A DNA stretch of 64,000 bases from contig CM016928.1 in assembly GCA_006247105.1 (NCBI GenBank), positions 496,001 through 560,000 of the forward strand, written 5' to 3'. Below the pieces are notes generated by a model. The model saw only the letters and a program-made list of their open reading frames with translations. It searched no databases and was not told where the DNA came from. Positions 3,366 through 20,043 of this stretch are shown here, piece after piece. Each line of letters starts with the position of its first letter. Within the stretch, counting starts at the first letter, position 1. The stretch is from Giardia muris. Taxonomy: Eukaryota; Fornicata; Diplomonadida; Hexamitidae. The position numbers and the translations under genes are program-made.

Positions 3366-3399
3366 GACATATGGAGGACTGGTAAAAGAAGGGAGAGCA

Positions 3400-3406
3400 A
3401 GTAAAG
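3400..3406 (+). terminator. Polyadenylation signal of the ARM-repeat gene
   Basis: AGTAAAG fits the Giardia AGTRAA consensus and lies 35 bp after the TAG stop. Confidence 0.45.
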
Positions 3407-3439
3407 GAGGCACAGCAAATACCTCTCTTGGACCGAACC

Positions 3440-3446
3440 CTTTACT
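3440..3446 (-). terminator. Polyadenylation signal overlapping the L31e stop
   Basis: On the minus strand AGTAAAG contains the TAA stop of the L31e gene. This overlap of stop and AGTRAA signal is typical of Giardia. Confidence 0.5.
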
Positions 3447-3753
3447 CAGAAATGATCTTCTTCTCGGTCGTAAGGCCCTTGAACGTCTCGACTTGCTTGT
3501 GTGCAACTATGACGTACTTGTGGTCCTCCTGGTCAACGACGTTGATCTCGATGCGGATGCGGCGAGGGAGATGACGAATCCCGCGGGACCAGACGAAGCA
3601 GTTGACGGACGGATCGAGACGGACGTCCTCAATCTTGGTCAGCTTCGTGACGTAGTCCCTGATTAAGCGCATCGCGGTCGGAGCACATTTCTTCCCAGGT
3701 GTGCCGGTGGTGACCCTGCGGAGGCGCATCGTGTGCTCATAGGTGACGGGCAT
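3442..3753 (-). CDS. RPL31: 60S ribosomal protein L31e
   Basis: The 103-residue protein matches the L31e family in length and layout. It has an N-terminal VTYEHTMRLRR strand, then KKCAPTAMRLIRDYV (family form KRAPRALKEIRKF), VRLDPSVNCFVWSRGIR (family DVRIDTRLNKAVWAKGIR), PRRIRIEI, and a C-terminal strand ending VETFKGL. L31e sits at the rim of the large-subunit exit tunnel. The gene is convergent with the ARM-repeat gene, with 76 bp between the two stops. The start is the only ATG that gives a complete N-terminus. Confidence 0.93.
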   Translation of the reverse strand: MPVTYEHTMRLRRVTTGTPGKKCAPTAMRLIRDYVTKLTKIEDVRLDPSVNCFVWSRGIRHLPRRIRIEINVVDQEDHKYVIVAHKQVETFKGLTTEKKIISE

Positions 3754-3796
3754 TGCTCACACTTCCTTCCTGGCCGGCTAATGGAAATAGGCCGAA

Positions 3797-3803
3797 TTTC
3801 ACT
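3797..3803 (-). terminator. Polyadenylation signal of the L-asparaginase gene
   Basis: The minus strand reads AGTGAAA about 22 bp past the TAG stop, fitting AGTRAA. Confidence 0.4.
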
Positions 3804-3825
3804 TCAATTTGCTTGTCCCAGCGGG

Positions 3826-5040
3826 TCAATAGGGGGCCCGTAGGTCTGAGTTCCGGAACGTCTCGATCTCACCACGGATATCGACGCACATCGCGCGCTC
3901 AATCTCCTCTCGGGACGTGCAACCAATTGAGAGGAGGTAGACCAGCTTTGCATAAGCGGCCTGCGGAGTCATCGTATATCCAGAGATCACCCCAACCTTT
4001 CCTAGACCTGCAGCATAGCGTCCAAGATCGACGAGACCCCAATGGGTTTGGGTAACGCAGATGACTATGATTCCTTCTTGTTTGAGACGCTTGATGGCGG
4101 TAGCAAAGTGTGGGTCGGAAGTGGGACCATTTCCAGCGCCATAAGCAAGGATGATGACGCCGCGCTTGCTAGCACCAGCGGCTAAGATATCCTGACCCGT
4201 GATCCCAGGGTATAGGTAGATCATGGTGACATCGTTACAGACCTTACGTGGGATGATAATTGTGTCCGAGGGATGAGTCGCGACGTCTTCGGAGCTTTCT
4301 CCAAGACGGACCTCGACGGACTTGACTCGAGGGATGGCTGAAATTGGTGCGGACTTCTGCTTCGCTAGAGTCTCTCGGAACTCTCCATTGTACATTACGA
4401 ACTCGTCATGGATGGAGATGGTGGCACCCCACTCTCCCAGGCAAGGGAAGCATGCAGAATCGAAGGCGTTGAGAGACCAGGAGGAATATTTCTGAACACG
4501 GTTCGCACGCATCAACTTCCCACCGAAGAACAGGGTGACTTCGGGGATGCAATACCAGCCGGCCATATAAATCGCCCCGATGAAGTTGAAGAGACCGTCG
4601 TTGTACAGCTCCGACATGGGGATTTGCGCCCCAGTGACCACGACATGTTTCGATAAGTTCCTTAAGAAGAAGGACAATGCCGACCCTGTGAAGGCTAACG
4701 TATCGGTCCCGTGCAGGACGACAAAGCCATCGTACTTGGCGTAATTATACTCTATATCCTGACAGATCTGTAGCCAATTCTGTGGCGTTGAGTCTGATGA
4801 ATCAATAAGGGTTTCATATTCGTGGATCTCATACAATGGCATATCCGGATGATGGAAGTTCGGAGTTGAGCTCGTTACCTCGTTAAGATAACCTGGGGCT
4901 GGGAAAAAGGCTCCTTCGGCGTCTCGTTTCATCCCAATTGTCCCCCCCGTGTAGATACACAGAACCTTCGGGCGCGGCTCCGAGGCCGGTCGCCTGTAGA
5001 TCGACGACCGTTGTGTAGTATTGACGACTGTCAGATTCAT
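3826..5040 (-). CDS. Cytosolic (type I) L-asparaginase
   Basis: The 404-residue enzyme hydrolyses L-asparagine to aspartate and ammonia. Both family signatures are present: TGGTIGM at residues 31-37, with the first catalytic Thr, and HGTDTLAFTGS at 110-120, with the second Thr-Asp pair. A DSS motif at 80-82 and GAGNGPTSDPHF in the C-terminal domain also match. No signal peptide is present, which fits the cytosolic AnsA-like class, and the ankyrin tail of animal asparaginases is absent. The start ATG is preceded by cagtaa and the stop is TAG. In an amino-acid-fermenting anaerobe it would feed aspartate and nitrogen metabolism. The relatives are largely prokaryotic, so lateral origin is possible but not shown here. 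Confidence 0.9.
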   Translation of the reverse strand: MNLTVVNTTQRSSIYRRPASEPRPKVLCIYTGGTIGMKRDAEGAFFPAPGYLNEVTSSTPNFHHPDMPLYEIHEYETLIDSSDSTPQNWLQICQDIEYNYAKYDGFVVLHGTDTLAFTGSALSFFLRNLSKHVVVTGAQIPMSELYNDGLFNFIGAIYMAGWYCIPEVTLFFGGKLMRANRVQKYSSWSLNAFDSACFPCLGEWGATISIHDEFVMYNGEFRETLAKQKSAPISAIPRVKSVEVRLGESSEDVATHPSDTIIIPRKVCNDVTMIYLYPGITGQDILAAGASKRGVIILAYGAGNGPTSDPHFATAIKRLKQEGIIVICVTQTHWGLVDLGRYAAGLGKVGVISGYTMTPQAAYAKLVYLLSIGCTSREEIERAMCVDIRGEIETFRNSDLRAPY

Positions 5041-5148
5041 TTACTGAAATGTGTGCGGTCTACCCCTCCCACAACAACAAATCTATCTTGACTAACCAGG
5101 ACATGGACTGACTTCGGACGACCAGGATTCACTTCCCCCCGCATGTCC

Positions 5149-7176
5149 TCAACGCCTATTCCGAGTGCCCAGGCTCATCTTTCCTGTCATCAGGTGACGG
5201 GCTGCAGTCTCGGCCGGTGCCTTGTAGGAGTAATGTGCCGCACTCTCACGCTTTGCATCCCGATCAAGCTGACGCATCTGCTCGACGCTCACCCCAGCCC
5301 GACGCGATTGTTCTTCCATCCGCTCCTGTAACGTCTTCTGCTTCTCCTTCATCGGCCCGGACATCCGCTTGAACACGAGGTGAGTCACTGACTTGTCGAA
5401 GTCATGCCCAGTCTTCTCCCGAACCATGCGATCGAGCGCCCTACCGTTCTGCATGCTCTTGTGTCGCACAATCCTGTTGACGGAGGAGTATAGAAGGTCC
5501 ACGCCACGAAGGGGCGCCTTCTTCAGGGGTCTGTTGTCTGTAAGTTCTCTAAACAGCTCCAGCTTCTTGAAGAGCGCCTCGTCATCGTAAGCACCCTCGA
5601 GACGAAGCAGGCCCTCCTCCTCCTCCTCTAAACGCCTGAGACGCTCCTCAATGTCCTCGTCGACCGTGATAAAATCGAGTATGTTCTTCCCGTTGTGGAA
5701 ATAGGGGATCTGGTCGTACTTCCAATCATCGTTGGCAAGAAGCCAATGCTTGCGCTCGTCCGGCTTATAGACGCGAGGACCACCGTTTTCTCGCTCCAAA
5801 TCCAGCTCCGAGATGAATCCATCCTCACGGCCCAACGGCCGAATCTGCATGTGACTTTCCTGGAGCCTTCGGACGGAGTCGGGTATGCATGGGGCGCGTA
5901 CCTTGTTATCCCGTGGCTGAGGCTGCGCTACGAACTGGCGGTGCTCAAGCCTTTCACGCTTCTGGTCCGTCAGAAGCTGCACCTCTCGCGCCTGAAGAAG
6001 CTGCTCACATGCAACAGCCATGGCACGCTCCACACCCTGCATATCCTGAGTCGAAACGGGGATGAAGACTGGGCCACCGGCCGCGGCTTGTGCCACAATA
6101 CGCATACGAAGCTCATGCTCCTCATTAAGACGCCTTTCTGCGGCCACCGCATGTTCTCCACCGATGGCGAGTTCCCTTTCGGCCTCTGCAGTCGTCAGGT
6201 ACGGGATGGAATGAAGTCCAAGACAGCTTGCAAGAGGTACATTGGGAGAGAGCGCCTGGACCCGCTCGAAGATGTCGGGCGAAAGCGAGTCCGGAGTCCA
6301 AATGTCGGCCTTGGACAGGATGATGATCACAGGCTTACTTTGGAAGAAGGGGCGCATGGACTCGAAGAGGCGGAGCTGCTTTTGTAGGTGCTCGCCCCCA
6401 TACGAAATGTCCAAGAGGAAGAGGATCGCGGCGTTGAGGTAGGCGAGGGCCGTGATTGCTTGGAGCTCGATGTTGTTACGTTCCTCGAGAGGGTGGTCCA
6501 AGAGCCCTGGAGTGTCGATGATCTGATAACGTAGGAGCTTATACTCTGCATGGCCAACGAATAAAGACTGAGTCGTAAAGTCCCAGGATGCGACCTCGAC
6601 ATTGGCGTCGGTCAGCGCATTCAGCAAACTTGATTTGCCGACAGATGGGTACCCAGTCAATAACAAGGTCCTAGCCGAGGGGTCGATGACGGGTAGACGC
6701 CCCATGTGTTTCCGCACCTGCTCAAGGTATTCGAGGTATTCTCCTTGCTTCCGCAGTAATGAGATCATTCGTCCTAAGGCCGCACGCTTCAACGTCTTGC
6801 ACTGGAAGAGAGAGTCGGCGTGCTTCAACAGTTTGACGTAGTGCTTCCCAACCTTATCGACGAGAGCCTTGCATTGATGTAATTGCCCCAGGGCAATCTT
6901 GAAGTGATCCTTATCATAGATCACGTTGAACCAGTAGCGGTAGAAGGGGTGGATCTCGTCGATCTTCGGGAACTCCTCCGTGATGCTCGTCAGCTTCTGG
7001 TCGATCGTGTTCTGGGTGAACCTGACCTTGAGCATGTAGAAGGAGCGGATCCGCGAGAGCTTCATCGTCTTCCGGATGACCGTGGGCGTCCGACGCTGGG
7101 TCTTCGAGAGGACGATGTCGACGATGTCCTTCCCGTTCGGGATCGTCGAGATGGCACGGAAGTCATAGATGGGCAT
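5149..7176 (-). CDS. NOG1: Nucleolar GTP-binding protein NOG1
   Basis: The 675-residue GTPase acts in late 60S ribosomal subunit assembly. The helical NOG1 N-domain covers residues 1-165. The G domain follows, with P-loop GYPSVGKSS (about 175-183), the Thr-rich switch I region DFTTQSL, and DTPGLLDHPLEERN starting at 221. G4 reads LSKAD instead of the usual NKxD, a change at a guanine-specificity position. The C-terminal half is charged and holds the basic tail that wraps pre-60S rRNA. The start lies 33 bp from the divergent kinase gene, after gaaataa. Length and domain order are as expected. Confidence 0.93.
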   Translation of the reverse strand: MPIYDFRAISTIPNGKDIVDIVLSKTQRRTPTVIRKTMKLSRIRSFYMLKVRFTQNTIDQKLTSITEEFPKIDEIHPFYRYWFNVIYDKDHFKIALGQLHQCKALVDKVGKHYVKLLKHADSLFQCKTLKRAALGRMISLLRKQGEYLEYLEQVRKHMGRLPVIDPSARTLLLTGYPSVGKSSLLNALTDANVEVASWDFTTQSLFVGHAEYKLLRYQIIDTPGLLDHPLEERNNIELQAITALAYLNAAILFLLDISYGGEHLQKQLRLFESMRPFFQSKPVIIILSKADIWTPDSLSPDIFERVQALSPNVPLASCLGLHSIPYLTTAEAERELAIGGEHAVAAERRLNEEHELRMRIVAQAAAGGPVFIPVSTQDMQGVERAMAVACEQLLQAREVQLLTDQKRERLEHRQFVAQPQPRDNKVRAPCIPDSVRRLQESHMQIRPLGREDGFISELDLERENGGPRVYKPDERKHWLLANDDWKYDQIPYFHNGKNILDFITVDEDIEERLRRLEEEEEGLLRLEGAYDDEALFKKLELFRELTDNRPLKKAPLRGVDLLYSSVNRIVRHKSMQNGRALDRMVREKTGHDFDKSVTHLVFKRMSGPMKEKQKTLQERMEEQSRRAGVSVEQMRQLDRDAKRESAAHYSYKAPAETAARHLMTGKMSLGTRNRR

Positions 7177-7209
7177 TTATTTCATTTCCCATTACGATTC
7201 CCCACGAGT
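7177..7209. promoter_or_regulatory. Divergent promoter between NOG1 and the NEK pseudokinase
   Basis: The 33 bp between two divergent ATGs contain AT-rich runs (ttatttcatttcc). They must serve as initiators for both genes unless the promoters lie inside coding sequence. Confidence 0.5.
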
Positions 7210-8961
7210 ATGCCTCATCCCGAGCCTAAGGCGGCCGTCTCGCCTGTCGATGTCGAGCTGGAAAAGATCCTGGCGCTTGGGGACTATACGGCGGCTGCCC
7301 TGGGAACCGTTGATGCATCCGGCTCGATATTCCGGGTCACCACTCCTCGGCATTCACAGGCCGTGGCCTTGCGTTACTTCCCCATTGGTGAGCTCCCTCG
7401 CCAGGTGGTTGAGGCCTGCATTGAGGAGATCACTCATACTGTTCGATATAGGCATCTGAACATTATGGTGCAACACCCACCCCTCCTGAAGCAGGACTCT
7501 CTTCTTATTGAGACCGAGTTCTGCGTTGGAGGCCGCCTAGAGTACTACATACAGAACGTGAAGGCTAGCGGGTACGCCCTTGAGGAGTCGAAGGTCTGGA
7601 TGTTCGTGGCGCAGATTGCGGCCGGTCTGGCATACCTCCACTCTCCTAGGAATGGATTGGGAGTTCGACCACATGGAGCACTTCGACCTGGGAACATTGC
7701 TTTCCGGAGTGATGTCACTTTGAAGATTGGAGACTATGGCCTTACAAAGACCCTATCCACCCTCGCCCCGGAGGCGTACGAGCAAGCCATGAGGTATGCG
7801 GCCCCAGAGGTGCGCCAGACTGGTATTCCTTCACCGCCTGGGGACATCTGGTCGGTGGGGTGTATCACGTATGAGCTTTGCACGTTCAAGAAGCCGTCGA
7901 TGCCGGCCTCAGCCATGCTCCGACGAGTCAAGCTTGGACTTCAAGGTTATTCGCCAGAGCTCTGTAAGTTTATCAGTTCATGCCTTCAAGTGGATCCTGA
8001 CGCGCGGCTCACGGCAGAGAAGGCTCTGGGACTCCCCCAAGTCAAAGGGGCTGCGAATGAGCTTTCCAAACGGGTCAAGGAGCGCGCAGAGGTGAGTGAC
8101 GACCCCACTGCTCCTAATCAATTTGATGATGATCCACGCCTAGCCGCCCTTAAGATGGCCATCAAGGCGGACAGCTACGAGCTAGCTAAAGCGAACGTCG
8201 AGCACCTGACTGAGGGGTCAGCCTCGGAGCTCTTGAAGTATGCCATAAAGGCTCGGTCGGTGACAGTTCTACCAATCCTTTGTAATAAGATTTCCGAAAG
8301 ACACATCCTAGTGGAACTAGGAGCCCAGAAGCCTCTTGCTCGCCAAAAGGATGACACTGCGCTCATCCAAGCCTTACGAGAGGAAGCACCAATAAGTATC
8401 GAGGGATGTCGCGACCAGTTGGGGATTCTGACCTCCACAGGCTCGGCGTTGATTTGGGCCGCTAGGAGCGCTCGTGTCGACGTCATCCCTGACCTTCTTT
8501 GTGAGCTTGGCCTTCAGGATCGTACGGGCTTGACTGCCTTGATGGAGGCTGCTGGAAGAGGCTTTCTAGGATGCGCACGCTACCTTCAGGCCGAGGCTAG
8601 GATGCGTACCTTGGATGGGATCACTGCCTTGATGTGGGCAGCAATAGGTGGGCATGAAAGCTGCGTTCAGCTCCTAAAGGAATATGAAGAGGGTCTTCAA
8701 ACAACCAAGAGCTTCAAGCTTGGTCGTTACCATGGCGGTGGGTGGACAGCCTTAATGTTCGCCGCCTGTGAGGGACACCCTGCATGTGTCACACTACTCT
8801 TATCCGAACAGGCTCTACGCAATACCTTTGGGGAATCCGCCCTTGACCTGGCGCGACGGCAGCTCGCAGATGGCTGTGCCTGGGACGCGTTCAGGTACCG
8901 GCACTGTATTCGTCTCCTTGAGGAAGCTTCAACCCCCTTGGACAGGCCAAGCTCTGGATGA
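7210..8961 (+). CDS. NEK-like pseudokinase with ankyrin repeats
   Basis: The start ATG at 7210 gives 583 residues; the open frame extends further upstream but only inside the NOG1 gene. Residues about 20-275 have a protein-kinase fold, but catalytic residues are replaced. The VAIK lysine position reads VALRYF, the HRDLKPEN loop reads HGALRPGN, and DFG reads DYG. Glu of APE is present (YAAPEV), and DIWSVGCITYELCTF matches subdomain IX. Ankyrin units follow in the C-terminal half, with TALMEAAGRG, TALMWAAIGG and TALMFAACEG. This is the NEK-plus-ankyrin architecture greatly expanded in Giardia, where many copies are predicted inactive. A scaffold role at the cytoskeleton is inferred. The stop lies 4 bp before the next ATG. 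Confidence 0.88.
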   Translation: MPHPEPKAAVSPVDVELEKILALGDYTAAALGTVDASGSIFRVTTPRHSQAVALRYFPIGELPRQVVEACIEEITHTVRYRHLNIMVQHPPLLKQDSLLIETEFCVGGRLEYYIQNVKASGYALEESKVWMFVAQIAAGLAYLHSPRNGLGVRPHGALRPGNIAFRSDVTLKIGDYGLTKTLSTLAPEAYEQAMRYAAPEVRQTGIPSPPGDIWSVGCITYELCTFKKPSMPASAMLRRVKLGLQGYSPELCKFISSCLQVDPDARLTAEKALGLPQVKGAANELSKRVKERAEVSDDPTAPNQFDDDPRLAALKMAIKADSYELAKANVEHLTEGSASELLKYAIKARSVTVLPILCNKISERHILVELGAQKPLARQKDDTALIQALREEAPISIEGCRDQLGILTSTGSALIWAARSARVDVIPDLLCELGLQDRTGLTALMEAAGRGFLGCARYLQAEARMRTLDGITALMWAAIGGHESCVQLLKEYEEGLQTTKSFKLGRYHGGGWTALMFAACEGHPACVTLLLSEQALRNTFGESALDLARRQLADGCAWDAFRYRHCIRLLEEASTPLDRPSSG

Positions 8962-8965
8962 TAAA

Positions 8966-10054
8966 ATGAGATTTGAGAACTGGAGGCCTTCCACGGCCAT
9001 ACGCCCCTCCGCCTCCCCTCCCCTAGCGCCAGCGCACTCTCGCCCGCAGACGGCGGCAGTTTCCGGCCCGGTCCAGCGGCGTCCGCGGACCACCCTGGCG
9101 CTTTACACGTACAGGCGCCAGGATGTCCCACCAGAGCAGGCCACGTCCCGTCGAACGCCCAGACGGCCAGTGGACCTTCCATACTATATAGATCCTGGTA
9201 TAGATTTCGATACTGACAAACCCATCGATATCCTAGTCACCTCGTTTTCGGAGTCTGCCTTGGAGGCGGCTTCTAATCCCATGTGCGTCGTCAGGACCAT
9301 CGACGGAGGCTCCATGCCGGCTCCCCCATTATCCAGAGGCTTCATGCCCCTCCAACTGAGTGCTAGTCGTAAGCACCGAGTGCCTCAAGTGACCCCCAGA
9401 GATGGCGGATTCAGTCTTCCCTCGGCGAAGGAACCACACAGAAATAGTCTATTCCGGGTAGAGCGTAGACTTACGTCAACGGGGAGCCAGAGTCCAGCTC
9501 CCCCAAAGCCTGATGCTTCCGGAACGATGTTTGGTGCATGTATGATCCAAAGTGGAGGTTACTTTAGCCCAAGAGTACACGAGAGATCTCCGATGCGGGA
9601 ACGGCGAACGAAGCTATGGACTAGCCCGGCTCCACGACAGGCAGGGGTGCAGCCACGTATGCAACCGCGCCAGACTGGCAATATGCGAGGAGTGACTCGG
9701 CCTGCAAAGACCGCCGGTCCTAGGCCCGCCAATCCGAGTGGGCGAAAGAAAGCTGAGGATTATCTCGAGATCCGGGAGCTCATAGACGAATTTGAGTGCG
9801 AGAGTACGACGCTCAGCGAGTATCCCAGCCCCAGGAGCAGTACAGCCTCTGCAGGGCCGAAATCTGCAGGGCGAGGTACAAGCTCCAAGGAGCGGCCGAC
9901 TTCCACCCACTCTCGGGTGCGAGCCCAGAGTGCAACCATCATGAATCGGGCACTTGTTGACGAGTACATCTCGACGCTGACGTTCCGTCCCGTTTCTAGT
10001 GCGCGCGGACGACTGGTCGCCGGCATGCCCGGACTCTCCAGTCGGGGCGCATGA
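8966..10054 (+). CDS. Hypothetical basic, low-complexity protein
   Basis: The 362-residue protein starts at an ATG preceded by ataaa, just after the kinase stop. The open frame continues upstream inside the kinase gene, but that part is probably not translated. The sequence is rich in Ser, Pro and Arg and looks disordered, with a short acidic helix around the motif YLEIRELIDEFECE. No catalytic motif or membrane segment is visible. I do not recognise a family. A cytoskeletal accessory role would only be a guess. The stop is 4 bp from the stop of the convergent GLUG-repeat gene. Confidence 0.7.
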   Translation: MRFENWRPSTAIRPSASPPLAPAHSRPQTAAVSGPVQRRPRTTLALYTYRRQDVPPEQATSRRTPRRPVDLPYYIDPGIDFDTDKPIDILVTSFSESALEAASNPMCVVRTIDGGSMPAPPLSRGFMPLQLSASRKHRVPQVTPRDGGFSLPSAKEPHRNSLFRVERRLTSTGSQSPAPPKPDASGTMFGACMIQSGGYFSPRVHERSPMRERRTKLWTSPAPRQAGVQPRMQPRQTGNMRGVTRPAKTAGPRPANPSGRKKAEDYLEIRELIDEFECESTTLSEYPSPRSSTASAGPKSAGRGTSSKERPTSTHSRVRAQSATIMNRALVDEYISTLTFRPVSSARGRLVAGMPGLSSRGA

Positions 10055-10058
10055 GCGT

Positions 10059-13000
10059 TTACATGAAGGAGCTGTCATTGACCGACATCAACTGCTGGGT
10101 GTCGATCTTGCTCCTGGATATCGTCAGATGGGACATGGAACCGTTGAGGGTTGAGATGCGTGACATCCGACCTTTCTGACAGGAAAATTTCAAGATACCG
10201 AAGAACGCCAAGCCGGCAAGGACCGCCCCGACGAGCGTAAGAAGAGAGATTATCAAGACAGCGACCGCGGCGCCCGTTGCCGGCGTAAGGTTCTTGGAGA
10301 GCATCCTATGGGGGACACGGTTCCAGTTCGCGTGACGCATGACGCAAACGTTCTCGTAAGTGTAGAAGGTAGAGTTGCACTCACAAACGGGCATTCCATT
10401 CCATAGTGTGCACTGGCCAGCAGGGTCATTGGTGTCCGACCCTCCACAAGGGGTTTTGCTCGGAGACATACAGACAGCCGTCCTACAATCCTGCCCCACA
10501 TATCCGAGCGGACAATCGACGCATATTCCATCTCGACGGCAAGTACCACCGTTGCAGCCGTCAGTTCCACTACTTCCGCCACACTGTTGGCAGGTGAAAT
10601 CGGCCCCGTTCTTTCCAGGACTACAGGTGATAGGGCTCCAGGGGAGGGCTGGAGGATTCTCATAGTAGCACAACCCGGTGCAGGTATTGTTGGTCACATT
10701 CTTGAGCATCGGGAAGCCACCCGTCTTGTTGGGGTTTAACCAGAGCCCGGGCCGACGCGTGGCCGAGGAGTAAGTCCAGCATCTGTACGCCTTCTTGCAG
10801 ACGTTGGAGCTGGAGTAGTTCAGCACGGAATGGGTGAGGAGGCCGTTGAGGACGTTGGTACTAGATCCGGAGGCCGTTGCATCTTCTATCCCCTTCGGGT
10901 TAGGAGGTTGTATGAGGACGGGGAGCCTACTGCTGTTGAGCAGGTAGTAGAAGGAGTTGCCGCTCGAGCTCGAATCATAGACGTACCCGGACCAATCGAG
11001 GCTATTGAGGCTATTGACACCGTTGGTGAGCTTATAATTGTTGGGGTTTGTGATGGTCGAATAGTCGCCGTAGTGTACGGGAGTGTCGGCCCCTCGTGTT
11101 GTTGGGATCGTTGTCGCCTGTCGCGCAATATTTGAACCGCAGTTGGTACATAGGACGTTTTCTGTGCCCATGTCGCTGTTGGAATCAAACACCTTGCCGA
11201 AGAAATCAATGGGTTTCGATCCTACCTCCTTTGAGAAGGAGGCAATCGTGTATGTGTAGCTCGATGTCGCCCCTTGACCGAGGAAGCCGATGAAGGCGCC
11301 GACACGCGCAGTGGATGCATCTAGAGTGGCATCCAACGTGAAGTTCCCATGGGAGTAGGATGCAATGATATCACTGCCGGAGGTAAAACCTACGAACCCA
11401 CCAAGACTGACTTCAGTGCCTGTACTGGCTGACGTGGCAACGGTGAAATTCCCATTGGCCCAAGAGCCAGTGATGTTAGAGTTGGACTTCAGGTCTCCGG
11501 CAAAGGCGCCAAGACGGGTGGTGGACGTTCCAGGAGTGACACTCGAGAACTTCGTCATTGCAAAAGACCCAGTGACCATGTTATACCTATCAGCTGTCCC
11601 CACCGCTCCGCCGTAGTACAAATTCTTCACCTTTCCGGAAAGACTTATGTTATCCATCGACGCATAGCTGTTGTAGATCGAAGAAAAGTCGATCATTTCC
11701 CCTGCAATCCCCCCGACGTAGAGCTTCGTGACATTTCCCGCAACCGTCACCGTTTCTAGCTTCGCAAACGACGAGTCGACGCAGGACGTGTTCATCCTTG
11801 CCACCACACCCCCATACCTGAGAGAGGAATGATTGCAATTAAAGCTTGTAGTGTTGATGGCAGCATAGGACTGGACGAACCTGGCGAGGTGTGAGTAGCC
11901 GGCCAGGCCCCCGATCATAAGATCTCCAGTCTGTTTCGAGACTGAAGAGTCAGCTCTGACACTCAAGACGTTGATGACGCAGCCACAAGTGCGAAGTTCG
12001 CCGCCCTCGTCATTGTCCGCACGCGTACGGGCATCCCCCGTGCTCGCGGTATCGAAGTGGCCGACGACACCACCCACGGCCGTGGTTCCCGCCGATATGA
12101 CATCCAAAGTCCCAATACGAACGGAACATGAGGCGACCTCGGAATAGGCTCCCGCGCTCGAACGCTTAAGTCCACCAATCAGTCCTCCCACCCGGAAAGT
12201 GCCCGAAGAAGCCGCTCCACCCAGTGAGGCGACAAAGATGCTTTCCGAAACTGTGGATGAGTCCAAAATGCGGCCTCCAGTGTTCAGCCCGATAAGCCCT
12301 CCGACATTAGCGTTGACAACGTTGTCCACCTCTATATTGATCGAGCTCTCACACTGTGAGATGTCGGAGTGGAGCATGTACGCGGCCAGGCCACCAACGT
12401 AGCAGGTACGAGTATCCCCACAACGGAGATACCCGAGACTTCGGGTCCGTGCACCCTTCGTGAGACGCGTATCGAGATAAGTGGAAACAAGCTGTCCGAC
12501 GAAGCCTCCAATGTAGCACGTCCCCTGTAGGGTCGTCGAGTTATTCCCCTTGCACTCAACTTCTACCCATGCGCTGTCCACGTAATCGAATTGAGAACCC
12601 TCCCCGGCAAGACCACCGAGGTACACCTCAGCGTTACTAGCGCCATGGGTAACGGATAGAGTGCTACCCTCAGAGACGGCCGTGGAAAAGATCCGCGACG
12701 CCTTGACGCTTCCGACAAGCCCACCGCAAATAATTCGACGAGCGGCGGGTGCAGACACCTGCAGCACAGAGATATCCGACGTCCGCACCGAGCTGATCCG
12801 CTGAGACCCACTGACGGCACCGAAGAGTGAGCCTACTGCAATGTAGCTGTTGTAGTCCGGAAAGTCGAAGTTAAGGGTGGAGGAGGATAGGACGTTTGCC
12901 ATCGGATGTCCTTCGAGTAGAAGGTTCCCAACGAGACCACCGTAGTACTTCCATGACTTACTGGAGGTCTGGGCATTGGTGGTTGTGACGGTCGTCTCGG

Positions 13001-13394
13001 TCAGGAGCTGAATGTGATAGAAGAACGGATCTATGGCCTCACCTGCTAGGAGGCCGAAGTGAGTGATACCTCCTCCTAACGATAGCGAGGAAGGACCAAT
13101 CACGGTAAGGTTAAAGACTTGGCCTGAGTAGATGGTCGAGAAGAATCCAAGTCTACTCCCCTCTGCCCTACTGTTGAAACTCCGGATCACAAGGGTCTTC
13201 CCGTTCCCATTAAGGCTACCGGAGAACTCCTTGATTGGGGTATGATCGTCGACAGTGATATCTGCAGAGAGTTGGAAATCGCAGCAAGGACACTTGGCGA
13301 TCTCCTCGACGTCCTCTGCCGACGTAAGACTGATGATCTCGGGCTGCGGGTAGCAGGAACCCAGCAGGAGCCCCAGGACGGCGAGGACCAGCAT
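10059..13394 (-). CDS. GLUG-repeat type I membrane surface protein with EGF-like region
   Basis: The 1111-residue protein has a signal peptide (residues 1-16, LVLAVLGLLLGSC). About 15 degenerate GLUG units follow between residues 150 and 760, for example GGLAGYSHLARFVQSYA, GGIAGEMIDFSSIYNSYA and GAFAGDLKSNSNITGSWA. These should stack as a beta-helix. Around residues 930-1035 is a cysteine-rich EGF-like region (CNGGTCRRDGICVDCPLGY). A transmembrane helix lies near 1048-1072, followed by a short Ser-rich cytoplasmic tail. Many N-x-S/T sites fit an extracellular domain. GLUG repeats are best known from bacterial surface proteins. The likely role is as a host-, mucus- or cyst-facing surface protein (inference). 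The start follows aaaaattaagct. Confidence 0.85.
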   Translation of the reverse strand: MLVLAVLGLLLGSCYPQPEIISLTSAEDVEEIAKCPCCDFQLSADITVDDHTPIKEFSGSLNGNGKTLVIRSFNSRAEGSRLGFFSTIYSGQVFNLTVIGPSSLSLGGGITHFGLLAGEAIDPFFYHIQLLTETTVTTTNAQTSSKSWKYYGGLVGNLLLEGHPMANVLSSSTLNFDFPDYNSYIAVGSLFGAVSGSQRISSVRTSDISVLQVSAPAARRIICGGLVGSVKASRIFSTAVSEGSTLSVTHGASNAEVYLGGLAGEGSQFDYVDSAWVEVECKGNNSTTLQGTCYIGGFVGQLVSTYLDTRLTKGARTRSLGYLRCGDTRTCYVGGLAAYMLHSDISQCESSINIEVDNVVNANVGGLIGLNTGGRILDSSTVSESIFVASLGGAASSGTFRVGGLIGGLKRSSAGAYSEVASCSVRIGTLDVISAGTTAVGGVVGHFDTASTGDARTRADNDEGGELRTCGCVINVLSVRADSSVSKQTGDLMIGGLAGYSHLARFVQSYAAINTTSFNCNHSSLRYGGVVARMNTSCVDSSFAKLETVTVAGNVTKLYVGGIAGEMIDFSSIYNSYASMDNISLSGKVKNLYYGGAVGTADRYNMVTGSFAMTKFSSVTPGTSTTRLGAFAGDLKSNSNITGSWANGNFTVATSASTGTEVSLGGFVGFTSGSDIIASYSHGNFTLDATLDASTARVGAFIGFLGQGATSSYTYTIASFSKEVGSKPIDFFGKVFDSNSDMGTENVLCTNCGSNIARQATTIPTTRGADTPVHYGDYSTITNPNNYKLTNGVNSLNSLDWSGYVYDSSSSGNSFYYLLNSSRLPVLIQPPNPKGIEDATASGSSTNVLNGLLTHSVLNYSSSNVCKKAYRCWTYSSATRRPGLWLNPNKTGGFPMLKNVTNNTCTGLCYYENPPALPWSPITCSPGKNGADFTCQQCGGSSGTDGCNGGTCRRDGICVDCPLGYVGQDCRTAVCMSPSKTPCGGSDTNDPAGQCTLWNGMPVCECNSTFYTYENVCVMRHANWNRVPHRMLSKNLTPATGAAVAVLIISLLTLVGAVLAGLAFFGILKFSCQKGRMSRISTLNGSMSHLTISRSKIDTQQLMSVNDSSFM

Positions 13395-13662
13395 AGCTTA
13401 ATTTTTCTACTGGCCGGATATAGGCTGTCTTAATCAATTCTGAATCCTATGGCCTTGGGGATGAGCTGCAACTGTTGTTTCCAGGGTTTCTCTAGAAATA
13501 TAGTCATGGTACGTTTCTACGCCCGAACACCCCCTCTGATTAAACCAGGCGTATCTGGTCAGCTAGTTTGGCTGGAAGTCACATTCTCCTTCAGCGGGTA
13601 CAGGCCCGAACGGAGACCGCGGTATCTGAGAGATCTCCAAATGCTGGGACTGCAAAAATTCG
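13395..13662. promoter_or_regulatory. Divergent intergenic region, GLUG-repeat gene / Hint-LAGLIDADG gene
   Basis: The 268 bp between two divergent ATGs is long for this genome. AT-rich initiators abut each ATG (agctaattttt on the left, gcaaaaattcg on the right). I see no tRNA, conserved element or convincing extra ORF. Confidence 0.4.
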
Positions 13663-14982
13663 ATGCCGAGAGGTTTCGTCAAGGGGACGAACGTCCGCAC
13701 TTACGTGGGCGAGCTGAAACCTGTCGAGGGCGTCGTGCAAGGAGACGTCCTCATGGGGGACGACGGGAATACCCGTACCGTCCGCGCAGCCCGCCACGGC
13801 CCGAGTCGGGTTTATACCGTCACGTATTCGTCATACCTTGACGTCAAGAACGACCGCTCGTTCACGTGTGGGGACGACACGGTCCTCGTCCTTGTCCCCG
13901 ACGGGAATCGGGAGCATAACCGCGTGATTAGTGCCACCCCAGATAACCAATACCCCGTCGAGTTTGTTGAGCCGATCGTCGACGGGGCGGGGGTGATCAC
14001 GGGCGTTGAGTACCGCCGAAAGGTCTTCGGGCAGGCGGAAGAGGCCCTCAGCTACGTCGACAAGAGCCTCCCCAACTTCCTCTATGAGGTCTCCATCTCC
14101 CGCTTCCTCCAGTACGACGTGAAAACCCAGGGGATGTTCAAGCTCGTTAGGCCCCTTCTCCCGATCAGGTTTGTGGACGCGGTGACGGCGATCCAGAACG
14201 ACACGAAGGCGGAGGTTGACGTTCTTAAAACCTTCGAGGTCCGTTCAACGGATATGCCTTGGCTCTGCGGGCTGTACCTCGTGACGGGCGTTGGGGTCGA
14301 TGAGAAGACCTTCCGGTTCCATCTGAAGGAGCTTCATACGAACGTCCTCATTGAGGTGAAGCGCATCTTCGAGTGTCTTGGCTCCTATTACAAATTGGAG
14401 ATCGACGAGGCCACGGGGAACTACTCTGTGACGTTCCTTGGGACGGACAGCCGTACGGACTACTTCAAGAAGTTCATGACGAGCTTCGGGCTCTACGACG
14501 CCGGAAGCCGCAGATACACGAAGGACCGCCTATCCAAGGCCGTCTACCTAGAAAGTTTCAGTCGCATCCGCGGGCCCTTCCTGGCGGGCATTCTTGACGG
14601 AAGCTCCGGGTATGGGCTCTCTGATATTAACCATGGCCTCGAGTGTTATGTCCGAGGGATTACTCACCCGAGTACCCGGGCGACGATCGCAGATCTGGCG
14701 CGTTCCTGCTCTCTTAGTGCAGTTATTGATGAGCAGGATGGATCAATCACCCTGGCCGGTGGGATGCTCTTCCGTGTTCCTTGCGTCGCGACGATTCCAA
14801 AGGACTTCCCTGGACTCGTCTCTTTGACATCATACCCGAACCCAGATGGGACCTCGGTTCTTTTAGGTATGCCAATGCCGTTCACGATCCGCGAGAAAGG
14901 AACTGAGGAGTGCTATAGTTTCGAGCTGCAAGAGCAGAACAAACGTTGTCTCCTTGAGGAATACACGGTTGTTAACGTCTGA
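13663..14982 (+). CDS. Free-standing Hint / LAGLIDADG protein of the VMA1-intein / HO endonuclease family
   Basis: All 439 residues align by eye with the yeast VMA1 intein and HO endonuclease. GFVKGTNV matches the intein N-terminus CFAKGTNV. Then come VLMGDDGNTRTV (block A/B region), FTCGDDTVLVLVP, WLCGLYLVTGVG (first LAGLIDADG helix), FLAGILDGSSGY (second, residues 306-317), HPSTRATIADLARS, and YSFELQEQN near the end. No extein flanks it: a stop lies 12 codons upstream of the ATG, and the protein ends six residues after EEYT. Splicing residues are changed (Cys1 to Gly, block B His to Thr, penultimate His to Val, next residue Val). The acidic metal ligands of both LAGLIDADG helices also appear lost. 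The ORF is nevertheless intact, so it may be domesticated for DNA binding or another task. Confidence 0.85.
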   Translation: MPRGFVKGTNVRTYVGELKPVEGVVQGDVLMGDDGNTRTVRAARHGPSRVYTVTYSSYLDVKNDRSFTCGDDTVLVLVPDGNREHNRVISATPDNQYPVEFVEPIVDGAGVITGVEYRRKVFGQAEEALSYVDKSLPNFLYEVSISRFLQYDVKTQGMFKLVRPLLPIRFVDAVTAIQNDTKAEVDVLKTFEVRSTDMPWLCGLYLVTGVGVDEKTFRFHLKELHTNVLIEVKRIFECLGSYYKLEIDEATGNYSVTFLGTDSRTDYFKKFMTSFGLYDAGSRRYTKDRLSKAVYLESFSRIRGPFLAGILDGSSGYGLSDINHGLECYVRGITHPSTRATIADLARSCSLSAVIDEQDGSITLAGGMLFRVPCVATIPKDFPGLVSLTSYPNPDGTSVLLGMPMPFTIREKGTEECYSFELQEQNKRCLLEEYTVVNV

Positions 14983-15000
14983 CCCAAAATGTACGCCAGA

Positions 15001-15007
15001 AGTAAAA
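15001..15007 (+). terminator. Polyadenylation signal of the Hint/LAGLIDADG gene
   Basis: AGTAAAA lies 18 bp past the TGA stop, fitting AGTRAA. It sits in the 36-bp gap before the stop of the convergent coiled-coil gene. Confidence 0.45.
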
Positions 15008-15018
15008 GCTTCGTTCAC

Positions 15019-16689
15019 CTAGCAACAAAGAAGGTCGTCCGTGGACAGCTTCCCCTCGTCTATCGCTCTCGTCTGTGCAACTGATGCAGACAAAACGAGC
15101 GGGTCGACAGAGGCGGCCGAGTTGAGCGTGGAAACCGGTGCAACATAGGGCGGCGTTGCAGGAGGCTTCTGGCTCATGCTCTTGACAAGCTTCGCGCTCG
15201 CAACAGGCTCTCGAACCTTCTTCAGAGGAATGTACTTCCCAGCCTCGGCGACCTCCTCCTTCGAGAGATGCATCATGTTCTGAGGCTTCTCAACTGCCTC
15301 GCAGCGGTCGCACTCGACCAGATGCTCGACCACACGAGGACGCTCGTTTAGTCGCTCGGTCGCCCGCGCAATGAGTCCGCTGAGTTCCTGGTTGATGCGG
15401 CGTGCCTCAGCATCCTCCTCATACATACGGCGGAGTGAATCGCGCGCGCGAGCCTGTTCGGCCGCTTGAGCCTGGCGCTCCGCACGCTCGAGATCCTGGG
15501 CACGGGAAAGGGCAGCACGCTCGTTGGCCACTCGATTTGCACGCTCCTCCGCGCCGGCACGCTTCTGAGCTTCGATCTCCTCGAGAACCTCCCGGGCATT
15601 CCGTCGGTTGAGTTCTCGTTGCTCTTGCGCATCTCGAGCAGCTTTCTCCCGCAGCTCTGTAGCCTGCTGACGGAGGCGTGCGTTCTCAGCCTCCTGCTCT
15701 TCTCGAAGGCGCTCGCGTTCCTCTTCCTTGATACGGTTGTGCTCGCGCACATGCTCGTTGAGCTCTTCTATACGGCGACGACGTGCTGCAGCATCCTCTT
15801 CCGGTCGCCCAACGATCCCGACACCAGTTTCAAGCATGCGGCGTTCCTCCTCACGTTGCTGTTGGGCCTGTTCCTGACGGCGGCGGCATTCTGCTTCACG
15901 CTCTCGGGCATTCTCCGCAGCCTGCTCACGAATACGTCGCTGTTCCTCCGCATACCGACGCTGGTCCTCGCGGCGCATCTCATCCTGAGCCTCACGAACA
16001 CGTGCTTGCTCTTCGGCCGCTAACCGAGCACGCTCATCCCGTGCCTGCTGGGCATTCTTATAAGCATCCTGTGCATCCTGTCGTTCACGTGCACGCTTCA
16101 GCTGGGCAAGTTTGGCATCAATTTCAGCGAGTCGCTTCGCGTCTGCAAGCTGCTGGGCGGCATTCTGCTTCTCCTTTTCGCGTTCCATCTTCTCGAGGAG
16201 TGCCCGCTTTGCGGCATTGAGCTCATTGATGCAGCTGGGGCACCATGCATCCTTGCAGTGATCTACAACGCTCTCGACGGCGGGGGCTGTACTAACTGCA
16301 CCGCGACTTGCCTCTGCATCGCGCATCGCCGCCAGGAGTGCCTTCTTGTCCTCAAGCGACATGGTAGCCAACTGGGCACTCGTCACGTAGGGTGCCTGAG
16401 CGGGAGATTGGCCTTTAAGCGTGGAGGGTTGTGCATCGGACTGGGTCTGGGACGCACCCAGGTTTGAGGACAAGCTTAGCGCGAGGTCAGCCGTCTGGCT
16501 TGGCGGGCGTGAGCCCGTGGCCGAGGAGGAGGCTATGCGTCGACTGGGGGGATCCTTGCGTGCCGCGGGCGCGGCGGGAGCCTTCTGCAGAGGCGCGAAG
16601 ACCTTGGCTGTGCTGGTGCGCGTAATCGGGTGGATCGGGGTTGCTGGGACGCTGACACCAAGCGAGGCGAGGATGTTGAAATCTCCCAT
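15019..16689 (-). CDS. Long coiled-coil protein
   Basis: The 556-residue protein is dominated by a charged Arg/Glu/Ala/Gln coiled coil from about residue 160 to 450, with repeats such as RRRQEQAQQQREEERR. The N-terminal 110 residues are Ser/Ala/Pro-rich. Two short cysteine clusters flank the coil (CKDAWCPSC before it, CDRCEA after it) and could bind zinc, but no known finger is complete. Such proteins in Giardia often belong to the cytoskeleton, for instance axonemes, median body or disc (inference). The ATG follows aaaaataaact, a strong initiator. I do not recognise an orthologue. Confidence 0.75.
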   Translation of the reverse strand: MGDFNILASLGVSVPATPIHPITRTSTAKVFAPLQKAPAAPAARKDPPSRRIASSSATGSRPPSQTADLALSLSSNLGASQTQSDAQPSTLKGQSPAQAPYVTSAQLATMSLEDKKALLAAMRDAEASRGAVSTAPAVESVVDHCKDAWCPSCINELNAAKRALLEKMEREKEKQNAAQQLADAKRLAEIDAKLAQLKRARERQDAQDAYKNAQQARDERARLAAEEQARVREAQDEMRREDQRRYAEEQRRIREQAAENAREREAECRRRQEQAQQQREEERRMLETGVGIVGRPEEDAAARRRRIEELNEHVREHNRIKEEERERLREEQEAENARLRQQATELREKAARDAQEQRELNRRNAREVLEEIEAQKRAGAEERANRVANERAALSRAQDLERAERQAQAAEQARARDSLRRMYEEDAEARRINQELSGLIARATERLNERPRVVEHLVECDRCEAVEKPQNMMHLSKEEVAEAGKYIPLKKVREPVASAKLVKSMSQKPPATPPYVAPVSTLNSAASVDPLVLSASVAQTRAIDEGKLSTDDLLCC

Positions 16690-16787
16690 AGTTTATTTTT
16701 CCCGTGTTGGCGGAACTCGGTTTCGGGCGCACTCAGGCGGGTCGAAGCCGTATTACCCGTGGGTGTGGGCCTGCACCCCTTTAAAGA
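16690..16787. promoter_or_regulatory. Divergent promoter, coiled-coil gene / exosome subunit gene
   Basis: The 98-bp gap has AT-rich strings next to each ATG: aaaaataaact on the minus side and cctttaaaga on the plus side. Confidence 0.45.
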
Positions 16788-17522
16788 ATGTCTGCAAATC
16801 CGGTGCGGTCAGACTGGCGGGTGTCTCTTCTCGAGCCACGGATCCCCGAGGTTGAGACGGTGAAGGGGGCACGGGGGACGGTCGTTCTTAAGGTCACGGC
16901 CTCACGTGTCGCAGTGGCGGCGACAGTCCGCGTGACTGGGACCACGGCTAACCCTAACGGGTCCTTCTGTTCGGTTCACATCTCCATCGCACCCCTTCGT
17001 CAGGAACTACAACGGTACATCCCAGAGCTTCGGGCGTCGCTCGAGAGGATGGTCTGTCGTGAAGCCTTACCTGGAGCCAGGGTGACTATAATTCTGAGCC
17101 CTGCCAGCCTTGACGGGGCAGCCTACGGATGGCTCCATGCGGCCGCTACACTGGCACTCCATGTGACCGGGGTGCCACTAAACTACTTCGGCGTGGCCAT
17201 CGTTATTGGGCTAGCACCTTCAGGGTGTGTTATTGTGGACCCGTCAACTGAGGAGGAGAAGGAGGGAGCCCTCATCATGGTTGAGGCCCGAGTCCCATCG
17301 TTGGTATTCAGACTGCCAGACCCTAAGGCAAGTGGAGGCTCGAGAGGGGTTGAAGTGCAAGGGAATCGTACTATCACTAGGGAGAGCGTGATCCGAATAA
17401 GTAGTATGGGGGTCATCCGGTTCGAGTATATTGAGACTGTACTTCAAACGTCCATTCAAGCTCTCAACGAGTGGGCCGAACAGCTCTTGAACGGCCTATT
17501 CGAGCGCAAGCGGAGCACATGA
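16788..17522 (+). CDS. Exosome RNase PH-domain subunit (RRP41/RRP46-like)
   Basis: The 244-residue protein fits the RNase PH fold of exosome ring subunits. The best anchors are ASLERMVCREALPGARVTI, the helix-strand GWLHAAATLALHVTGVPL, and VDPSTEEEKEGALIM (RRP46 family form LDPTxxEEKxA). These subunits form the six-membered ring that channels RNA to RRP6 or DIS3 and are usually catalytically dead in eukaryotes. The phosphate-binding arginines of bacterial RNase PH are not obvious. It is closest by eye to RRP46, but RRP41, RRP42 or MTR3 cannot be excluded. The start ATG follows cctttaaaga. Confidence 0.75.
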   Translation: MSANPVRSDWRVSLLEPRIPEVETVKGARGTVVLKVTASRVAVAATVRVTGTTANPNGSFCSVHISIAPLRQELQRYIPELRASLERMVCREALPGARVTIILSPASLDGAAYGWLHAAATLALHVTGVPLNYFGVAIVIGLAPSGCVIVDPSTEEEKEGALIMVEARVPSLVFRLPDPKASGGSRGVEVQGNRTITRESVIRISSMGVIRFEYIETVLQTSIQALNEWAEQLLNGLFERKRST

Positions 17523-17650
17523 AACAGGACCGGCAGTAGGTCTAGAGTATGAAGTTATGGCGGTAACACGCAGGAGGGAGGGAGGATAAATGGTTCATGT
17601 CAAATAAATCCCCGAGAAAGAGGTATGAGAGTATGTCCTCAGAAGCGGTC

Positions 17651-18919
17651 TCACTTGGCACCCTTCAAGTGCTTGAGTGTATTCTGGTAATTGTCAGGGA
17701 AGATCCGGTTCAAGTGGAAGCGACGGAACCCACCGACCTGCTCTGTGACTAGAAACCCGTACTCTGTCGCCATGCTGTTGAGGATTGAGGCGGCGGCCGC
17801 GACGGGGATGCCTTCCTCCTTCGCCAACAAGTAAATCGTGTAGTACTCGTAACGCTTTCTCAAAAGATTCATCAAAGGCTTGATGAGGACTTCCTTTGTC
17901 ATCAGAAGGGAGGCGGCCATGAAGTACTTGGTCCCACCCATATCCCAGAGAACGTATTTGGGCATTTCAAACGAGCTTCCCGGAAGCTTAGCCTGATTAT
18001 AGATGGCCGTCATAGTACACATAATTTTATCGAATTGGTCAGGAGTGACGAGGGAGGTTTGCCGCGTACGGTTCAGTCCCGCAAATACTTCATCTGAAGG
18101 GACGATTTTCCAGGTCTTATGGCAAAGGTTCCCGGAGGCGATGTACCCATCAATGACCGCAGGGAGGTCCTCGTAGATGAATTTCTTTACGTTCTCACTC
18201 CTATTCAAGGGACTGAGCCGTTGAGGAACGGGGATGTTGAGGAAAAGCCTCTTAGAGTTCTCGAGGCAATTCCCTATATCAAAGGGTTGCAAGGCATCGA
18301 GGGAAAGCACGTGCTGTTTCAGCCCAACGCCGCAACGGTAGACGAGTCGCGCCATCTCAACGATGGTGGCCTCCTTGAACACGTCTGGATTGGCCACGCT
18401 CTCATCGATGACCGCACGAGTTTGCGCGATATTCTTTTTGTGTGCACGCTCGAGGTTATTCAGAAGAGGCGCCTCTTCAACACCTGAGGCCTGGCGGATG
18501 GTATTAACGCTCTGAAGGAACGCGTCCATCGCCTTGCGCTCCTGGAAGCATATCTTAATGTAGTCTGCCGTCCTGGTCGGTAATAATCTCTCGCAGCGAC
18601 TGGTATCACTGAAGTGAGGGTAGAGCTTGACGGTCCGACCACGATCACACTCTTCTACATGCTCGATGTCAGGGCCGAGAAGAGCGACGCCCTCGACGGC
18701 GCCCGAGACCGTGGGAGAGGGCCCTGTGAGGTAGATGGTGTTTCCACGGCGAGAGATGTAGACGGTCGGTTCGAATTGTTGTCGACGCTTCGCCTTGAAG
18801 AAGATTGGGGTGTCACCGTTATTGATCGACAAGACGTTCTCGGCGAAGATGAAGGGCTCGTGCTGGTTGGTCGGGATCCCCGTCGTACGGTCCAGCCGCG
18901 CATTATGACAACAATGCAT
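17651..18919 (-). CDS. VPS36: ESCRT-II subunit VPS36-like
   Basis: The 422-residue protein starts at the ATG preceded by caataaat; the frame runs eight codons further to a GTG that overlaps the next gene. The N-terminal 140 residues look like a GLUE/PH-type domain, with strands around DTPIFFKAKRR, TVYISRRGNTIYLTG and RGRTVKLYPHF. The C-terminal half matches the tandem winged helices of VPS36, ending in YEYYTIYLLAKEEGIPVA and FRRFHLNRIF (family pattern LRFYPNLF). ESCRT-II sorts ubiquitinated membrane cargo at endosomes and peripheral vacuoles. The match rests on domain order and short motifs, so VPS36 is probable rather than certain. Confidence 0.65.
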   Translation of the reverse strand: MHCCHNARLDRTTGIPTNQHEPFIFAENVLSINNGDTPIFFKAKRRQQFEPTVYISRRGNTIYLTGPSPTVSGAVEGVALLGPDIEHVEECDRGRTVKLYPHFSDTSRCERLLPTRTADYIKICFQERKAMDAFLQSVNTIRQASGVEEAPLLNNLERAHKKNIAQTRAVIDESVANPDVFKEATIVEMARLVYRCGVGLKQHVLSLDALQPFDIGNCLENSKRLFLNIPVPQRLSPLNRSENVKKFIYEDLPAVIDGYIASGNLCHKTWKIVPSDEVFAGLNRTRQTSLVTPDQFDKIMCTMTAIYNQAKLPGSSFEMPKYVLWDMGGTKYFMAASLLMTKEVLIKPLMNLLRKRYEYYTIYLLAKEEGIPVAAAASILNSMATEYGFLVTEQVGGFRRFHLNRIFPDNYQNTLKHLKGAK

Positions 18920-18939
18920 ATTTATTGCTCCCAAACCCG

Positions 18940-20043
18940 TCACCTGAGATCGATGGAGAGATGTTCCGTAGACTCGACGGACGCTAGGGAGGTGGACGAG
19001 GTCACGGGCTGGAGTGAGTGTTCCGTCTCTTCTTGAGGCTGTTGCGCCTGAGCCTGCTTTTCAAGGCGCTTCTTGTAACGATTGCTCGCAAGGGTGTAGC
19101 AGACAACTCCTGAGACGACGAGGACCAAGGAGCAGATCTTGTAGACGTCGATACAGTTAGCGCTTTCGACCTTACAGAACGTGAAGTGACTGATGACGAA
19201 GACGCCCACGGAACTGATTGCTTTGTTAACCCCAACCATGACGGCGCCGACGGAGACGACGGCTGTGAACTGTGCGTAGAGGTGGACCCAATCGAACAGG
19301 ATGAGGAGCAGATATAACAGGAAGATGTAGAGATAATTCCCTTGCTTGTCATGTACGGGCTCTACAAAAAGAGCTTCCCACCTGGGGACCGTCTCAGCTA
19401 GGGTATAAGAGAGAAATATGCTCACCCCGAAGATACCCATGAAGCCTGCTAAGTGACGTGAATGTATTGGCCTCTCCGTCGCCAAACAGAAATATTCTGA
19501 TACCCAATAGACACAGGAATGCAGGATCGTCCCGACCAGGGTGATGAGCATCCCAACCAGCTTGTCGGCTCCAAAGGAGGTCAAGGCACCTACTCCAGAG
19601 ACCATAAGACCGACAGTAACAACCCCTATTGATAACCACATCCATACTGACATCTTCCGCTTCAGAAGGATCCTCGACCCTATGGCGGACCAGATCGTTA
19701 AAGACGAGTAGATGATGATGTAGAGCCCCGAGCCAATCATCAGTTGGCCGAATAACGTCAGCGTAGTTGCAAAGACGTCAATTAGGGTCATAACAAAGAT
19801 ATCCCGAGGAAAGAGCCACAGCGAGTCCGTGCGGCTATGGAAAGCATCCTTGGCGGGGAGGGGGAGGAGAAGCGCCATCCCTAGGCTATTCGGGATCGGG
19901 AAGAGAAACGCCTCCTTCGATGCCCCTCCGAAAAGACTGATCGCGTCCAGAATGATCGGCTGGAAGACCCCGGTGACGACATACGCGATGACCAGCACGA
20001 TAGCCAACCACCGCGACATGGGGCGTGCCTCATTCACTGCCAT
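18940..20043 (-). CDS. Drug/metabolite transporter superfamily permease (SLC35-like)
   Basis: The 367-residue membrane protein starts at the ATG after tatatatt; the open frame runs further only through a TTG. About ten hydrophobic helices are visible, starting WLAIVLVIAYVVTGVF. The central segment IIIYSSLTIWSAIGSRILLKRKM is followed by a hydrophobic helix, the usual DMT/EamA half-repeat signature. A short charged tail with Gln/Glu follows. Family members move nucleotide sugars, thiamine or other small organic solutes in Golgi, ER or plasma membranes; the substrate cannot be read here. The stop lies 20 bp before the VPS36-like start, in tandem. Confidence 0.82.
   Translation of the reverse strand: MAVNEARPMSRWLAIVLVIAYVVTGVFQPIILDAISLFGGASKEAFLFPIPNSLGMALLLPLPAKDAFHSRTDSLWLFPRDIFVMTLIDVFATTLTLFGQLMIGSGLYIIIYSSLTIWSAIGSRILLKRKMSVWMWLSIGVVTVGLMVSGVGALTSFGADKLVGMLITLVGTILHSCVYWVSEYFCLATERPIHSRHLAGFMGIFGVSIFLSYTLAETVPRWEALFVEPVHDKQGNYLYIFLLYLLLILFDWVHLYAQFTAVVSVGAVMVGVNKAISSVGVFVISHFTFCKVESANCIDVYKICSLVLVVSGVVCYTLASNRYKKRLEKQAQAQQPQEETEHSLQPVTSSTSLASVESTEHLSIDLR

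Follow-up and report, generated by a model that had tools for sequence, protein, structure and literature searches.

An apparently non-catalytic, intein-derived protein in Giardia muris and other diplomonads

To our knowledge, few domesticated inteins are known. In PMC7282813, the yeast proteins HO and WHO are described as free-standing, extein-less and intein-derived, and HO, which retained its nuclease and carries a C-terminal zinc finger, as a domesticated cellular gene. The same paper describes WhiA as a LAGLIDADG-derived protein, which is no longer capable of cleavage and persists as a gene of the cell. The diplomonad protein described here shares with HO and WHO that it is free-standing, extein-less and intein-derived, a likeness based on the published description only. 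While HO comprises a zinc finger and a nuclease, the diplomonad protein stops at the intein terminus and contains neither catalytic Asp, and Pfam revealed no zinc finger in it. With WhiA (DUF199) it has the LAGLIDADG origin and the loss of cleavage in common, again according to description and not to sequence. We know of no Hint domain in WhiA. According to PMC11701221, WhiA is bacterial and fused to an HTH, whereas the diplomonad protein comprises another architecture. Compared to PI-SceI, the yeast VMA1 intein (PF05203 and PF05204), the diplomonad protein differs in having no exteins, in the loss of Cys1, of the block B His, of both Asp and of the terminal Asn, and in its acidity, while PI-SceI is basic. 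Furthermore, the G. muris genome carries no VMA insertion.

The gene, its surroundings and its similarity to complete inteins

The analysed window, a stretch of 64,000 nucleotides from G. muris, contains the gene as an intact ORF, which starts with ATG and ends with TGA (Table 1). The motifs named in a preliminary description of the 439-residue ORF were all present: GFVKGTNV comprises residues 4-11, FLAGILDGSSGY starts at residue 306 and is followed by HPSTRATIADLARS, and YSFELQEQ is located close to the C-terminus. Upstream of the ATG the frame is open for 11 codons only and the protein stops on the last intein residue, in agreement with the absence of a host extein stated there. In the searched genome (9.74 Mb, 52 contigs), a single copy of the gene was found, which was also the sole match to PF05203, and neither PF14890 nor PF14528 showed a match at E <= 1. 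Based on these three scans, further inteins or LAGLIDADG genes in the G. muris genome were ruled out.

With a GC3 of 0.72 compared to 0.56-0.67 for seven neighbouring ORFs, the ORF is somewhat G+C-richer at third positions than its neighbours. The Giardia initiator is AT-rich. Among the 15 bases preceding the ATG, 9 were A/T, with a range of 4-12 for the 23 long ORFs of the window, which were used as the comparison set and some of which are perhaps not genes. The hexamer AGTAAA downstream of the stop codon fits AGURAA, which is given in PMC9014877 as the poly(A) signal of Giardia, and AGTRA was observed within <=40 bases past the stop codon in 7 of the 23 long ORFs, including the one described here.

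The neighbouring ORF of 1111 amino acids (10059-13394, minus strand) gave no match in Pfam. Read by eye, it comprises an apparent signal peptide, a transmembrane stretch, repeated GGLVG/GGLAG-type motifs and a Cys-rich end. The ORF at 17651-18943 (minus strand) is EAP30/Vps36-like with an E of 1.3e-4, which is under the cut-off; at E <= 0.001 only the protein itself and one other protein (83%) were obtained for it among 5.8 billion proteins. A repeat search across 10000-18500 showed short, weak repeats only, and a WHO-like element flanked by target-gene fragments was ruled out on this basis. An NCBIfam match of residues 126-167 (14038-14163) to RNA 2'-phosphotransferase (E 0.0034) reached 17 of the 233 bits needed and was rejected as probably due to chance.

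Table 1. Coordinates of the gene, its domains, the aligned catalytic positions and the flanking signals in the window
Feature	Position	Strand	Remark
Whole gene, free-standing ex-intein protein	13663..14982	+	439 aa; single genome copy found
A/T-rich stretch AAAAATT, directly 5' of ATG	13654..13660	+	sequence
N-terminal Hint block, residues 4-80	13672..13902	+	hhalign E 1.5e-22 to intein profile
Position of nucleophile Cys1, Gly4 in G. muris	13672..13674	+	alignment with inteins
Position of block B His, Thr73 in G. muris	13879..13881	+	alignment with inteins
Insertion in Hint fold, residues 81-196	13903..14250	+	alignment
First LAGLIDADG half, residues 197-296, degenerate motif	14251..14550	+	weak alone
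Position of first catalytic Asp, Thr208 in G. muris	14284..14286	+	alignment with inteins
Second LAGLIDADG half, residues 297-404	14551..14874	+	most conserved part
Position of second catalytic Asp, Ser314 in G. muris	14602..14604	+	alignment with inteins
C-terminal Hint block, residues 405-439	14875..14979	+	ends on last residue of the intein
AGTAAA, poly(A)-signal match	15001..15006	+	18 bases 3' of stop codon

The homology of the whole ORF to inteins, which had been proposed from an alignment by eye, was confirmed by profile comparisons. Pfam Hom_end_hint (PF05203) matched residues 5-437 with an E of 5.4e-11 and 43.4 bits (cut-off 32.1), and is annotated in all six members of the diplomonad family described below with a best E of 1.2e-12. 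The score of PF05204 remained under the cut-off for the G. muris protein. The profile-profile comparison with 14 phage inteins resulted in an E of 2e-28 and placed residues 5-438 onto positions 2-343 of 344. In a piecewise test, four segments were collinear with the intein profile and each of them scored above all 20 column shuffles. For the first LAGLIDADG half alone the margin was narrow, with 20.9 compared to a shuffle maximum of 19.0 over 14 columns, while the two halves jointly reached an E of 5e-7 and a score of 52.1 compared to a shuffle maximum of 20.3.

PI-SceI was the top PDB match by sequence, with an E of 3e-6 for the single query and of 2e-7 for the six-member profile, and it was also ranked first in the fold search. 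The fold comparison aligned 202 of the 217 residues of PI-SceI domain I with an rmsd of 4.5, and the Hint fold of the predicted structure matched a Prp8 intein over 138 residues with an rmsd of 1.5. The predicted model showed block pLDDT values of 25-41 across residues 291-390, and low values also at residues 161-180. Since half 2 is poorly modelled and the low-confidence stretches are absent from the top fold match, its assignment is based on sequence comparison only.

In all six members, Met and two further residues precede intein position 1, and the end of the protein is the last intein position. The insertion, which contains the conserved motifs PDGNR, PNFLYE, RPLLP and IQ..TK, sits at the place that we take to be the DNA-recognition region of PI-SceI. 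Altogether, the gene product follows the order of a complete intein from end to end, comprising Hint, insertion, two LAGLIDADG halves and Hint, without exteins. The Pfam match, the missing extein, the single copy and the intein-free V-ATPase A gene (see below) bear out the free-standing, intein-derived Hint plus LAGLIDADG protein that had been suggested.

A diplomonad family with replaced catalytic residues

The search of 5.8 billion proteins yielded six members including the G. muris protein. The identity to the latter was 46% for Spironucleus salmonicida, 47% for Hexamita inflata and 68, 67 and 60% for three Giardia-like relatives; the Spironucleus and Hexamita relatives carry the public name 'Homing endonuclease'. 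A profile search revealed no additional member among the 8000 scored candidates sharing most words. In the tree, the diplomonad members formed one clade with a support of 100/100, in which Spironucleus and Hexamita (95/70, a split that is not fully supported) were separated from the four Giardia-like rows (99/91). A split of Spironucleus and Hexamita from Giardia is the expectation from the species relationships. Accounting for only six sequences, the tree order appears compatible with vertical descent. Since relatives occur in Spironucleus and Hexamita, the family is common to these diplomonads and does not go back to a single capture by Giardia alone. Thus, from the preliminary view of an unexpected Giardia copy that originated from capture and reuse of an intein, the intein origin was retained, while the isolated occurrence was not.

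For G. intestinalis no match was obtained in the family searches, and the same holds true for the EAP30/Vps36-like neighbour gene, which was used as a control. According to PMC8394649, which also mentions high divergence, a Giardia VPS36 exists; since the control likewise remained without a match, an absence of the family from G. intestinalis cannot be deduced. Among the titles and abstract beginnings of the open-licence literature, no publication on such a diplomonad gene was found, and the words 'homing' and 'intein' are absent from the main text of the diplomonad genome and phylogeny papers PMC7641422, PMC11787283, PMC11437800 and PMC9509377.

The residues of the six members were compared with those of 33 inteins (14 phage and 19 bacterial). 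Position 1, which is Cys in 32 of the inteins and Ser in one, showed Gly in four members and Ser in two, and due to this Ser two relatives retain a possible nucleophile. The block B His, present in 33/33 inteins, was replaced by Ala in four members and by Thr in two. For the first LAGLIDADG Asp (32 inteins, with one Val), Thr was found in three members and Ala in the other three, while the second (31 inteins, with one Gly and one Cys) was Ser in all six. The terminal residue is Asn in every intein compared to Val, Leu or Met in the six members; in G. muris it is Val and is directly followed by the stop codon, and the other five protein records end there likewise. The penultimate His was retained in 2/6 members compared to 31/33 inteins. 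In PI-SceI, all six splicing and nuclease residues are present. As judged from these alignments, the six known diplomonad members are all without the residues driving protein splicing and DNA cleavage.

All six members are full-length proteins, and 131 of the 443 columns of their alignment were invariant. These comprise 16 of 81 columns in the N-terminal Hint block, 31 of 116 in the insertion, 16 of 101 in half 1, 63 of 109 in half 2 and 5 of 36 in the C-terminal Hint block. Half 2 showed the highest density, compared to 14-27% in the other parts, and according to the alignment it is the most rigidly held part of the protein. From the protein conservation we infer purifying selection on the family.

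Charge, possible function and alternative explanations

The whole-protein pI amounted to 5.2-5.8 in all six members, compared to 8.1 for PI-SceI and to more than 7.7 for 12 of the 14 phage inteins; since the other two are acidic (6.2 and 6.0), acidity alone is no proof. For half 2, a net charge of -3 to -7 was calculated in the family, whereas the 28 inteins used for comparison, one of which is PI-SceI with +3, ranged from 0 to +16 with a median of +7. Half 1 showed no difference, with -1 to +3 in the family and -5 to +8 in the inteins. The acidity would argue against bulk DNA binding, yet it could be compatible with a specific recognition of DNA or RNA. Half 2 may represent a fixed binding surface, for which a protein partner appears more likely than bulk DNA.

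These observations could be explained by the capture of a complete intein, or of an intein-derived free-standing gene, which took place at the latest in the common ancestor of the diplomonads sampled here. Mobility and catalysis would have been lost in that ancestral diplomonad, and the gene would afterwards have been passed on by vertical descent like any other gene of the cell, maintained by purifying selection. With less certainty, a non-enzymatic binding or scaffold role is assumed for the protein: half 1 and the Hint fold would form its frame, while the acidic half 2 together with the conserved insertion would bind a constant partner. To this joint reading of capture, loss of catalysis, vertical retention and a non-enzymatic role we assign a probability of roughly 0.7. 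We see an even chance that the ancestral diplomonad turned an entire intein into a vertically inherited non-enzymatic protein in such a way that half 2 was rebuilt into an acidic, nearly frozen partner surface and both catalytic centres were removed.

Alternatively, the protein could be a dead LAGLIDADG protein that still binds a fixed DNA or RNA site in the manner of a WhiA-like regulator. The most conserved part, half 2, belongs to a DNA-reading fold, and the insertion is found where the DNA-recognition region of PI-SceI is presumably located. WhiA itself would be a precedent for the change from a LAGLIDADG nuclease to a transcription regulator (PMC7282813 and PMC3781837). However, the low pI of all six members, the negative charge of half 2 compared to the inteins and the lack of a helix-turn-helix or zinc-finger domain in Pfam make this explanation less likely than the non-enzymatic binding or scaffold role.

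It is very unlikely that the protein is an active homing endonuclease, which would act like HO by means of relocated or unusual catalytic residues. Although the fold matches PI-SceI and the Spironucleus and Hexamita records are named accordingly, both metal-binding Asp are replaced (Thr or Ala; Ser) in all six members, a single copy was found with only short and weak repeats nearby, and a zinc finger, which HO requires for cleavage according to PMC7282813, is missing. Based on the replaced residues, an active nuclease, active splicing and self-cleavage were all rejected. The identity as a homing endonuclease, as initially described, was thus not upheld, and it is suggested that the public name is misleading for the diplomonad proteins. 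That the gene is a selfish relic in decay, or was recently transferred several times independently, and has no cellular function would be in line with the general mobility of intein-like genes and with the loss of the catalytic residues, but is hardly probable in view of the full length of all six proteins, the invariant columns shared across the Giardia-like, Spironucleus and Hexamita lineages and a tree order compatible with the species. Least probable of all is a hedgehog- or BIL-like Hint protein cleaving itself at one end, e.g. by a nucleophilic Ser4 in the Spironucleus and Hexamita proteins, since despite the match of the Hint fold to a Prp8 intein, the Ser at position 1 in two members and the penultimate His retained in two, position 1 is Gly in the other four, the block B His is missing in all six, and three residues before position 1 and none past the last one leave nothing to release.

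If the captured intein was indeed kept as a non-enzymatic cellular protein, the diplomonad case differs from HO, which retains its nuclease, as the whole Hint plus LAGLIDADG body was seemingly retained while both activities are gone. This suggests another route from a selfish splicing element to a cellular gene in a deeply branching group of eukaryotes, and offers a compact and tractable family for asking how an intein scaffold can possibly be reused.

Phage and bacterial inteins and the source lineage

A source of the VMA/HO type had been proposed for the protein. PI-SceI was the best match by fold, and the diplomonad insertion is placed like its presumed DNA-recognition region, both of which are in favour of this origin, whereas phage and bacterial inteins showed the highest non-diplomonad sequence scores among those compared, with an identity that reached 51% across residues 5-55, and have the motif GDxLMGDDxxPRxV in common with the diplomonad family. 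In BLAST, the phage inteins reached 38-54 bits (six best rows per query) compared to 27-42 bits for PI-SceI, a comparison that favours the phage inteins, since they were gathered by similarity to the family and comprise 14 rows versus one. Constraining the diplomonads to group with PI-SceI resulted in a cost of 7.3 log units (341 columns, AU p 0.325), and of 3.0 log units with the Hint part only (104 columns, AU p 0.152); in these trees PI-SceI forms a long branch and HO was left out. Since the sequence scores favour the phage inteins, the fold favours PI-SceI and the trees favour neither, the gene is named 'intein-derived' and no source lineage is given.

A first profile scan of the contigs with the six-member alignment found nothing; 24 bacterial loci were found to match the family. 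The phage and bacterial inteins are true inteins, which lie within longer frames and kept Cys1 (or Ser), His, Asp and Asn in 31-33 of 33 cases, and their insertion is shorter than the diplomonad one. Judging from the flanking sequence, their hosts are P-loop genes, several of which resemble DnaB-type helicases. In the locus L047 from a Cytophagales MAG, the intein at 3010-4008 showed intact splicing residues, while both LAGLIDADG Asp are lost (V, C). This represents a separate case of nuclease loss, and a second intein-like end is located further along the same frame. The open frame 4011-7676 of the locus L022 contains IVTHNS twice and the locus L039 shows SHNS at a later place in its frame, which in both cases possibly reflects two inteins within one gene.

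In the V-ATPase A gene of G. muris, both the P-loop and the CGERGNE stretch are uninterrupted. The insertion site looked for at this gene therefore holds no intein, and V-ATPase A was ruled out as the present host site. Two loci on one contig, L029 (G000:C1:1750850-1751539) and L030 (C1:2452335-2453024), carry an apparently identical V-ATPase B-like frame of 500 aa, while the surrounding 3690-base stretches differ; this could perhaps originate from a recent duplication.
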